NCBI GenBank assembly: GCA_003576905.1
Contig: QEVG01000003.1
Coordinates: 1 to 51,356 of the forward strand
Reading direction: 5' to 3'
Length of the DNA stretch: 51,356 nt
Source of the DNA: Planctomycetota bacterium
Lineage (GTDB): Bacteria > Planctomycetota > Phycisphaerae > UBA1845 > UTPLA1
The notes below the pieces were generated by a model. The model was not told where the DNA came from and searched no databases. It saw only the letters and a program-made list of their open reading frames with translations. Every line of letters starts with the position of its first letter. Position 1 is the stretch's first letter. Shown here one piece after another: positions 7,366-9,594 of this stretch. The position numbers were made by a program, and so were the translations under genes.

Positions 7366-8097
7366 GTGACCGCCCCAACCCGGACAATTGGCGTGGGTGT
7401 TGTCATGGCCGCACTCGCCCAGGGATGCGCCCCGGCGCACACCGAGGTGACCGGGTTTGTTGATCCTGATTTCGTCAAGCGCCCGTTTCGAAGGCTGCTG
7501 GTGGCGCCGAGATATGAAGATCTCGCCCTCAGGACGGCAACGGAAGATGCCTTCGCCCGGTGCCTCTCCGGCAGCGGGGCCAGGTGCGTTCCATCCATGA
7601 GCATCCTCCTGCCGACGCGCGAGCTGGCCGACAAAGAGCTGTTCCCGCTCCTGGCCGAAAAGCGGATCGACGCCGTCCTGCTCATCCGCGTTCTCGATGC
7701 CTATCAGGAGCGCGAATACGTCCCCGAACGCGTGGACGTCGACACCGACTACTTCCTTACCGCACGGCAGTTTCGCCCGTCGCGAACCGGTAGTTATGGC
7801 CGTGCGTACTCACACACCCGCGTCACGCGGAGCGGTGGCTACTACATCGAATACCCCCGGGTCCGGCACGAACTGACGCTCTACGACGTGGCCACGAAGC
7901 GCATGGCATGGTTTGCGACGTCCCTCACCCGGGGGGAGGCAAACGCAACAGGCGGACAGATGATCGATTCATTTGCGCAAGAGACGGTTTCGCGCATGAT
8001 GATTGACGGCGTGATCGACCCTTCGCTGGACTCACCCGGCGGCGCGACAACGCGTCCGGCCTCTCAGCCCGCGTCGCCGGCTCAATATCCATCGTAA
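7366..8097 (+). CDS. Small exported protein, possible lipoprotein, function unknown
   Basis: A 243-residue protein read from a GTG at 7366, five bases after the S9 peptidase stop, so it is probably translated from the same message. The N-terminus (VGVVMAALAQGCAPAH) is a short hydrophobic segment ending at Cys; the -2 Gln makes it a poor lipobox, so lipidation is uncertain. The mature part alternates strands and charged turns, contains FRRLLVAPRYEDLALRTATE and a Tyr/Gly/Arg-rich stretch around 143-166, and ends in a Pro/Ser/Thr-rich tail. The pattern resembles periplasmic proteins that carry a conserved patch for envelope assembly, but I do not recognise the family. Its 3' end overlaps the convergent small gene by 16 bases. 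Confidence 0.75.
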   Translation: MTAPTRTIGVGVVMAALAQGCAPAHTEVTGFVDPDFVKRPFRRLLVAPRYEDLALRTATEDAFARCLSGSGARCVPSMSILLPTRELADKELFPLLAEKRIDAVLLIRVLDAYQEREYVPERVDVDTDYFLTARQFRPSRTGSYGRAYSHTRVTRSGGYYIEYPRVRHELTLYDVATKRMAWFATSLTRGEANATGGQMIDSFAQETVSRMMIDGVIDPSLDSPGGATTRPASQPASPAQYPS

Positions 8098-8336
8098 AGC
8101 GCCCAGCCGACCATCAGCATCGCCTCCGCCACGGCGATACCTACTGCGGCCCAGCCCAGATGCTTCTGGGGTCCATGCCGAATCGCCGAAACACCCCCGA
8201 TGATCGCCACGGGTATCCCCAGCGCGATGGCGCCCTGACCGAGCGCCGCAAGGGGATGCCCTCAGCAGAATCTCTGCGTCAGCACGATTCCCGCGATCGG
8301 CAGAAACGAAGTCATCAGCGCCGAAAAACCGCTCAT
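8082..8336 (-). CDS. Small membrane protein with one in-frame TGA: candidate selenoprotein or point-mutated gene
   Basis: From an ATG at 8336 preceded by a perfect AGGAGG (8343-8348, six-base spacing) the frame runs 24 codons, meets TGA at 8264-8262 after ...LTQRFC, and continues in the same frame for 59 more codons to TGA at 8084-8082. Both halves read as membrane protein: a helix before the TGA (about 5-20) and two after it (about 30-47 and 56-77, with GIPVAIIGGVSAI and AAVGIAVAEAMLMVGWAL). The second half resembles the Gly/Ala/Ile-rich helices of small DUF4190-like proteins. Beginning 15 bases after the TGA is a hairpin with a GGUCA loop like that of bacterial SECIS elements. If decoded, residue 25 would be selenocysteine beside Cys24 (a CU pair). 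The alternative is a CGA-to-TGA nonsense change or a base error. It lies 64 bases after the epimerase on the same strand. Confidence 0.6.
8211..8264 (-). promoter_or_regulatory. SECIS-like stem-loop directly downstream of the in-frame TGA
   Basis: After the TGA (8264-8262) on the minus strand, GGCGCTC (8247-8241) pairs with GGGCGCC (8235-8229), with one U-G pair, closing a five-base loop GGTCA (8240-8236). The loop begins 21 bases after the TGA. An outer helix pairs GGGCATCCCC (8261-8252) with GGGGATACCC (8220-8211), nine of ten positions. Bacterial SECIS elements are known to need a stable upper stem, a small loop with a G at its start, and a TGA-to-loop distance of about 16-37 bases; all three hold. 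GC-rich coding sequence often forms stems by chance, so this remains a candidate. Confidence 0.4.
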
Positions 8337-8400
8337 CAAGTTCCTCCTGAGTGTGTCCGCGCACCCGCAAGTATATCGAATGGCAGCCTGCCGCCACACG

Positions 8401-9594
8401 CTACAACGGCACTTCGACGACGGGCAGCATCGACAGCCGCGTCAGTCGATCTTCACGCACCTCCACGCCCAGCCCCGGCCCACGCATCGGCGTCCACCGC
8501 CCTCCCAATCCGAAGCGAAGCGATCGGCCCACGATGTCCTCGCTCAGGAGGAACCGCCCGAAACTCCCCTCCGCGAACCGCACGCCCGGCACGAGTTGAA
8601 GAAACCACCGCCCCGCTGCCGAAAGGATGCTCGTCTCGCCCACCATACACCCGAGCTGAACATCCACGTTGTTCTCCAACGCCATTTCCGCCAGCCGAAG
8701 CGAGGGTATCAGCCCCCCGTTCTTGCTGATTCGGATATTGAACCACGATGCGGCGCTCCAGTCGATCAACTGCTCGCCGTCGTCGATTGTGACCAGCGAC
8801 TCATCCGCCATGAGCGGAATGCTCGTTCGACACGTCAATTCGACCCATTCATCAAGTGCCCCGCGGGCCAGAGGCTGTTCCACGCTTACGATCGGCAGGC
8901 TCTCCCACGCCTGGAGCCGCTCGGTCGCCTGATCCAGCGTCCAGCCCGCGTTCGCGTCGAGCCGCAGCGTCGTCGCGCCCCGCTCCAGCGATCTCCCCAG
9001 CCGCGCCGCGCACGCCCGGACCCGCGCATCATCTTCCGCATCGCCCACCTTTACCTTGAAATGCGTCAGCCGCCCCCAGCGCATTTTGCGAATTGAGCGT
9101 GCCGCCCGATCCGGTTCGCTCGCCGAAATCACGCCGCCGAACCGTGCCGTCTCCACGCTGCCCGGCGCGCCCAGCCGCGTCTCGCTCACCCATCCCGCCA
9201 GCGATTCCAACGACTTGCCGAATGCCCGGCTGTATGCATCGAGCATGGCCAGTTCGACCGCCGCCCGCGCCGCCGTTACGACCGTCCCCTCGTCATCCAC
9301 CTGCGGCAACGCCGCCGCCGCCTCGATTGCCTCGCCAAACTGCGTCGGGCCGCTTTCCACCAGGCGCGGAACGAACACCTCGCGAATCGCCGCCAGCACG
9401 CTCGCAGTTGTTTCCCCCGTCACGTACGGCCGCGGATGCGTCTCTCCATACCCCACGACGCCGTTCGCCAGCTCAACGGCCACCACAAGCGGCTCCGCAA
9501 CCGCCCGTTCGGCCGCCGCATGCGAGAACTTCCGGCGCATCGGGATGGCAAGCTGCCAGATTCGAAGTCGAGAAATCGGAAGCCGCGTGGGCAT
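8401..9594 (-). CDS. Enolase-superfamily enzyme, muconate-lactonizing / dipeptide epimerase subgroup
   Basis: A 397-residue protein with the N-terminal capping domain (about 1-130) and a TIM-barrel carrying the full MLE-subgroup active site: Lys180 and Lys182 in HFKVKVGD, metal ligands Asp213 (LRLDANAG), Glu239 (SVEQP) and Asp264 (LMADESL), and the opposite-face base Lys291 (ISKNGG). Two lysines on opposite faces indicate a 1,1-proton transfer or cycloisomerisation; Ala-Glu-type dipeptide epimerases share this layout and are the commonest such enzymes in bacteria, but substrate cannot be fixed without specificity-loop comparison. GAAGG directly abuts the ATG at 9594, an unusually short spacing. 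It lies between a GT4 gene upstream and the small membrane gene downstream, all on the minus strand. Confidence 0.88.
   Translation of the reverse strand: MPTRLPISRLRIWQLAIPMRRKFSHAAAERAVAEPLVVAVELANGVVGYGETHPRPYVTGETTASVLAAIREVFVPRLVESGPTQFGEAIEAAAALPQVDDEGTVVTAARAAVELAMLDAYSRAFGKSLESLAGWVSETRLGAPGSVETARFGGVISASEPDRAARSIRKMRWGRLTHFKVKVGDAEDDARVRACAARLGRSLERGATTLRLDANAGWTLDQATERLQAWESLPIVSVEQPLARGALDEWVELTCRTSIPLMADESLVTIDDGEQLIDWSAASWFNIRISKNGGLIPSLRLAEMALENNVDVQLGCMVGETSILSAAGRWFLQLVPGVRFAEGSFGRFLLSEDIVGRSLRFGLGGRWTPMRGPGLGVEVREDRLTRLSMLPVVEVPL

Follow-up and report, generated by a model that had tools for sequence, protein, structure and literature searches.

Selenoproteins usually have cysteine homologues, which the deep-Sep filter requires although they are not strictly defining, and selenoprotein catalogues rest largely on known families and on Sec/Cys pairs. 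In PMC12013277 the authors of deep-Sep point out that selenoproteins lacking Cys homologues may escape their method. For the hairpin that accompanies a recoded UGA, the part of PMC13188914 that sets out the bacterial SECIS rules gives a loop of 3–9 nt, a stem of 4–16 bp, a G at loop position 1 or 2, a spacing of 16–37 nt and an MFE of ≤ −7.5. Several bacterial selenoproteins with a CU or UG motif in the same source (SaoL, SaoC, HgcA, MbdU and KCU-star) share with the gene described here an in-frame UGA, a downstream hairpin and a Sec beside Cys or Gly, and selenoprotein candidates of two planctomycetes appear in supplementary table S9 of PMC4807772.

We analysed a stretch of 51,356 nucleotides from a Planctomycetota bacterium (contig QEVG01000003.1; the window), in which an original prediction, made from the letters alone, had proposed a possible new selenoprotein. 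The proposal is supported by UGA in 96 of 97 family members, by a covarying hairpin and by Sec machinery in the genome. On this sequence evidence the gene is very probably a genuine bacterial selenoprotein gene with Sec at codon 25 (probability about 0.96), and it is the founding member, for the present work, of a family of small membrane proteins of Planctomycetota.

The gene and its relatives

The features of the locus are as follows.
8082–8336, minus strand: putative selenoprotein gene, 84 residues, Sec as residue 25, stop codon TGA at 8084–8082 (from the sequence and its homologues)
8343–8348, minus strand: Shine–Dalgarno box AGGAGG, 6 nt 5′ of the ATG (from the sequence)
8262–8264, minus strand: in-frame TGA, very probably read as selenocysteine (residue 25); TGA in 96 of 97 members and invariant in profile A4
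8229–8247, minus strand: SECIS-type hairpin, 7-bp stem GGCGCUC/GGGCGCC with loop GGUCA (from covariation, recodings and codon constraint)

The gene starts with the ATG at 8336 and runs through 24 codons, the last of them a Cys codon (TGC), to the TGA at 8264–8262, followed by 59 codons and a TGA stop. The AGGAGG box and the 24 and 59 codons around the in-frame TGA, as claimed in the original prediction, were confirmed on the minus strand, and its description of the gene was right in every particular checked. The gene upstream (8401–9594) lies on the same strand, 64 nt ahead of the ATG, and its product, judging by its sequence, looks like an enolase-superfamily dipeptide epimerase.

A search with the read-through protein matched 41 places in 38 of the 114 genomes of the order. 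At 40 of them the matched stretch contained a TGA opposite codon 25, and at the remaining one (genome G030) the codon was TGC. Profile A1, built from these homologues, found more members in the same order and, among 392 sampled genomes of other classes of the phylum, nine with TGA; for one other order, which overlaps that sample, TGA was in the match for 26 of 154 genomes. Four weak A1 rows seemed to start past the Sec, and there the TGA sits just before the match. With the broader profile A4, 82 of the 397 genomes in the class gave matches at E ≤ 0.01, the weakest of them being chance or doubtful. After row-by-row inspection we accepted 97 members in 91 genomes, 96 with TGA and one with TGC, so that Cys was found at residue 25 in one of the 97 and Arg, Gly or Trp in none.

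Left out of the 97 were L127 and L184 (G794), L141 (G090), L143 (G608), L176, L177, L185, L180–L183, L210, L214, L215 and L216, on the grounds that there was no TGA at the place, or no hairpin or surrounding protein; of these, L215 and L216 count as doubtful cases, not firm exclusions. Fourteen weak A4 rows without TGA (E from 6.5e-5 to 0.009) also lie outside the 97, and further Cys forms are possible. L215 (G164) has Trp (FYWDPP) at the place of the Sec, its TGG codon being one base from TGA; judging by its sequence, it is plausibly a distant relative with Trp, and a few non-Sec relatives may exist. L176, L177 and L185 have RGGH instead of CUGH in frames longer than 500 residues, with a C-terminal stretch like the family hairpin (GIALGIQFRGGHMLSAFG), and may represent a relative without Sec that is joined to another domain.

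The family searches covered samples of Planctomycetota together with plasmids and viral contigs, and the plasmids and viral contigs gave no family matches. The named relatives are metagenome-assembled genomes of Phycisphaerae, Phycisphaerales and Planctomycetota. A scan of genome contigs with the single protein came back empty because the patterns across the Sec used Cys codons. With alignment A2 the same contigs yielded 14 loci, of which L085–L091 are members whose genes were already among those counted (L085 and L030 are the same gene). Two other kinds of A2 match were set aside: L092, from Bacteroidales, showed no C[UC] motif, and L093–L098, from Asgard archaea, belong to a different protein (CCGHPLDLLG, encoded with Cys codons and without a membrane helix in the vicinity), presumably an HdrB-type CCG domain, and are chance look-alikes.

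Two members stand in tandem at L040 (G030), a Cys form at 105–485 and a Sec form at 498–740. The former, the sole Cys form among the 97, carries a His-rich C-terminal tail (HDHKHGHG...HDHDHDH).

Across the 49 rows of A4, all with Sec, the Sec is the only invariant column, and G16, G26 and G33 are nearly invariant. The residue before it was Cys in 72 of the 97 members, Gly in 20, Thr in two and Ser, Val or His in one each, and in the second branch it is Gly throughout (14 members). Gly follows the Sec in 93 members, then most often His (42), Asp (28) or Ser (8), then Pro (76). The window gene does have the Cys codon before the TGA on which the original prediction based a CU pair, but the pair is not conserved, and on these sequences the family motif is U-G-[H/D/S]-P rather than CU.

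When a lone gene shows an in-frame stop, the cause is often a mutation, a pseudogene or an error, and the original prediction had itself named a C-to-T change of an Arg CGA codon, or a base error, as the competing explanation. Those two are excluded by the same codon across 91 genomes. More generally, it is exceedingly improbable that an Arg or other sense codon was lost here through a nonsense mutation private to this genome, through decay into a pseudogene or through a base error: 96 of 97 members keep a TGA at the corresponding position, the protein is conserved on either side of that codon, and no member has Arg there. Annotation programs would call the UGA a real stop, which would leave a 24-residue peptide and the rest untranslated in frame, or else regulated readthrough without Sec; the frame 3′ of the UGA is, however, conserved as protein in both A1 and A4.

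The hairpin downstream of the UGA

A 7-bp stem with a GGUCA loop 21 nt from the TGA, as described in the original prediction, is present at 8247–8229 on the minus strand. Its match to bacterial SECIS geometry also held: loop length (5), stem length (7), the position of the G (GG), spacing (21 nt) and energy (MFE of the stretch −14.2 kcal/mol) all conform to the rules as published in PMC13188914, and covariation supports the element. Such a hairpin argues against a real stop at the UGA. A search of the window with Rfam at gathering scores gave no family matches, and the SECIS was therefore assessed by those rules (PMC13188914) and by covariation.

The window gene by itself makes the hairpin no more than suggestive: 0.8% of 5,000 synonymous recodings also produced a 7-bp stem and GGU at this place, and 3.2% of 1,000 reached its energy. 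With the homologues the evidence is decisive. Among 78 gapless sequences of the first branch, 91.4% of stem cells are standard pairs and five of the seven pairs have changed on both sides, with 75 cells showing both-side changes as compared with 30.2 in shuffles. The covariation score was 0.392, against 0.190±0.012 in shuffles, none of 500 of which scored as high, and sliding the partner strand by 1–3 columns brought pairing down to 28–50%. At the exact place, a hairpin of at least 4 bp with the loop G occurs in 76 of the 78 sequences, whereas synonymous shuffles, which keep every protein and draw codon usage pooled from the long frames of the loci rather than per genome, gave a mean of 14.3 and a maximum of 24 (n=1,000). 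The two exceptions are L017 and L034. L017 (G013) has a 7-bp SECIS-like hairpin with the loop GGUC, shifted upstream of the usual place. The hairpin tests were run without L138, whose sequence stops 22 nt past the beginning of its TGA codon; A3 and A5 omit L213 as well as L126 and L142, in which the loop is nearer by one codon, and A3 also omits the Cys copy.

Beneath the loop, codon choice is frozen. Leu32 is encoded by CTC in 71 of 71 first-branch sequences (background 0.361) and Gly33 by GGT in 70 of 74 (background 0.159), while all four Gly codons are in use at Gly26 and Gly40. The hairpin codons of the first branch are thus under strong synonymous constraint. The 14 sequences of the second branch instead have CTT-GGA beneath a UGG loop, on 8-bp stems of very different sequence; 92.9% of their stem is paired, with a covariation score of 0.613 against 0.160±0.045 and none of 500 shuffles as high. 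In the Cys copy of G030 the loop reads GGA and just 3 bp form at the place of the hairpin, as expected if the signal decays after Sec loss, although this is one case. Of the two signals pointed out in the window gene, the hairpin is an element common to the family; the Shine–Dalgarno box is not, as start regions vary.

Selenocysteine machinery

The genome of the window (4.7 Mb in 65 contigs, 97% complete) carries all four of selA, selB, selC and selD, which the original prediction had proposed searching for. ARAGORN found no tRNA in the window itself; the tRNA-Sec lies elsewhere in the genome (C17:72941-73034), at 66 bits, above the Rfam cut-off, and is called SeC by ARAGORN with the anticodon tca. 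SelB (C63:4497-5651) scored 295.9 bits against a cut-off of 242.25 and adjoins SelA (C63:6458-7813, 521 bits). SelD (C48:154742-155659, locus L105) scored 359.9 bits and has an in-frame TGA of its own (SCAGU-AGK), with a hairpin bearing a 3-nt loop, GUU, 33 nt after the UGA. It is plausibly a second customer of Sec insertion in this genome, likewise with an in-frame TGA and then a hairpin, but it is an unrelated enzyme. The gene described here is on C29, away from the sel genes on C63, C48 and C17.

Codes in which UGA means Trp or Gly exist in some bacteria, and such a reassignment would equally let the frame be read through. It is hard to reconcile with the window gene and many relatives themselves terminating with TGA, with a conserved hairpin that trails the recoded UGA and leaves the terminal one outside it, and with the tRNA of anticodon tca being tRNA-Sec; we give a reassignment to Trp or Gly practically no weight.

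Within the order, 100 of the 114 genomes had a tRNA-Sec of at least 60 bits or SelB over its cut-off, and 14 had neither. The gene was present in 38 of the 100 and in none of the 14 (Fisher p = 0.0022), the 60-bit line having been drawn after the list was seen and the 14 including some incomplete assemblies, with four at ≥90% completeness (G034, G037, G038 and G041). Six of the 38 gene-bearing genomes are without a 60-bit tRNA-Sec (G013, G049, G076, G079, G083 and G085), and all six have SelB over the cut-off. The absence of the gene from the 14 genomes without machinery, in addition to the conserved downstream frame and the hairpin, makes a real stop highly improbable.

A selenoprotein is the preferred reading, and we infer that Sec is actually inserted at codon 25 of the window gene. 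SelB and the Sec-tRNA would decode the UGA as selenocysteine, and the downstream hairpin, its loop starting 21 nt 3′ of the UGA, would direct the insertion. In another family of the order, a member begins 44 nt (G042, L202) and 34 nt (G043, L203) after selB on the same strand, and the two genes probably form one operon there.

Predicted topology, possible function and comparison with known families

AlphaFold2 with A1 predicted three helices in the window protein.
8268–8330, minus strand: predicted helix 1, residues 3–23, transmembrane by composition
8175–8255, minus strand: predicted helix 2, residues 28–54
8088–8165, minus strand: predicted helix 3, residues 58–83, absent from short forms

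The model of the long form had a mean pLDDT of 76.3 (moderate) and a pTM of 0.47; short forms gave two helices at a pLDDT of 66.3 (low). The Sec lies between the end of helix 1 and the start of helix 2, and the predicted fold is a helical hairpin in short forms or a three-helix bundle in long forms, with the Sec in the turn. Mean net charges of +0.96 at the N-terminus, −0.88 in the turn and +1.96 at the C-terminus of the short forms (n=26) suggest that the N-terminus is cytoplasmic; for the long forms (n=70; +0.74 at the N-terminus, +0.39 in the turn and +1.3 behind helix 2) the indication is weak. If the N-terminus is cytoplasmic, the turn with the Sec would face outwards.

Comparisons with known proteins gave no coherent match. 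Foldseek with the model returned no matches at E ≤ 0.001, the best VIA-align hits (Z 8.2) were to unrelated helical bundles, with nothing significant, and a PDB sequence search with A1 gave two matches, at E 0.34 and 0.94. Each Pfam family matched at most one of 41 members (best E 0.0087) and at most one of the 49 in A4; each family of NCBIfam release 20.0, which recognised the SelD of the genome as a control, matched at most two of the 41 (best E 0.0012) and at most one of the 49. No function can be read from a known active site, with nothing invariant other than G26, G33 and the Sec. Nor does gene context give a general function, since no neighbour is common to the family: at most five loci share one, in a few genera of family f8. 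In one genus (L032 and L035, in G049 and G048), the short-form gene adjoins an opposite-strand membrane protein with HTVLGPDHYLPF, presumably a NicO/UreH-type transporter motif.

Selenol-based redox chemistry at the membrane surface is our tentative reading of the activity, held at somewhat less than even odds. The selenol would, for example, reduce peroxide or another oxidised small molecule, and the resolving thiol would come from another molecule, because the adjacent Cys is dispensable while the Sec is not.

We also weighed a membrane protein that handles soft metals or metalloids in the manner of MerT, with Sec or Cys-Sec as the metal ligand. Helix 1 of MerT contains a vicinal CC with xxPL after it, and profile alignment puts CCGHPL on CCWLPL; a Sec form of MerT (PF02411) stands in the table of PMC13188914; and the single Cys copy in G030 has its His-rich tail. 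Against this, the profile comparison, in which 27 of 30 MerT loci were used (L150, L166 and L171 dropped), scored 15.8 at a probability of 0.9%, with four of 60 block-shuffled MerT controls higher and a reversed MerT control at 11.2. PF02411 was unmatched in 41 members at E ≤ 1 and in 49 at E ≤ 0.1, no metal-resistance neighbour is conserved, and the second Cys is missing from 25 of the 97 members. Homology to MerT is not supported: the profile score lies within the shuffled controls and Pfam gave no match; metal handling of this kind is unlikely, and the redox role is the more likely of the two.

A part in selenium homeostasis, for instance in taking up or sensing selenium or in supplying it to Sec synthesis, would fit the position of the gene immediately after selB in G042 and G043, both of one genus, and the near-absence of a Cys form (one of 97). 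It fits poorly with the 62 of 100 Sec-using genomes of the order that are without the gene (fewer by the later profile searches) and with its distance from the sel genes in the window's genome, and we consider it quite unlikely. A broader scheme is doubtful. In it, the transmembrane family would be essentially Sec-only, Cys being inadequate for the task at the membrane turn; it would be co-expressed with SelB in at least one genus and might keep selenium or redox balance for the Sec system, instead of representing a Cys enzyme improved by Sec.

Compared by name, domain and motif, neither the 87 families in the table of PMC9312934 nor the 119 in that of PMC13188914 include a small membrane family with the present motif, and the literature on selenoproteins in Planctomycetes, Planctomycetota or Phycisphaer yielded no such family among the matches listed. 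The family thus looks like one absent from the published catalogues, as far as name, domain and motif set it apart, an unnamed earlier sighting being possible. Its absence would be explained by the blind spot of deep-Sep for families without Cys homologues, as the authors' remark has it (PMC12013277). For a short family of uncultured bacteria with almost no Cys form, the expected fate is removal by such filters, or annotation as a peptide of 24 residues and a truncated frame. If our reading is true, a blind class of selenoproteins without Cys forms exists, Sec extends to the turn of a membrane hairpin, and the family offers a test case for why Cys fails at a membrane turn.

By name, domain and motif, no entry in the table of PMC13188914 is a membrane hairpin of 50–90 residues with U-G-[HDSN]-P. 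MerT (PF02411) resembles the family in being a small membrane protein with a vicinal CC in helix 1 and xxPL at the same spacing, while its Sec motif is catalogued as C/SxxU (PMC13188914), against CU or GU here. Compared with bacterial SECIS elements, the present family has two loop classes, GGUNC on CTC-GGT and UGG on CTT-GGA, and two such classes in one family are material for studying recognition by SelB.
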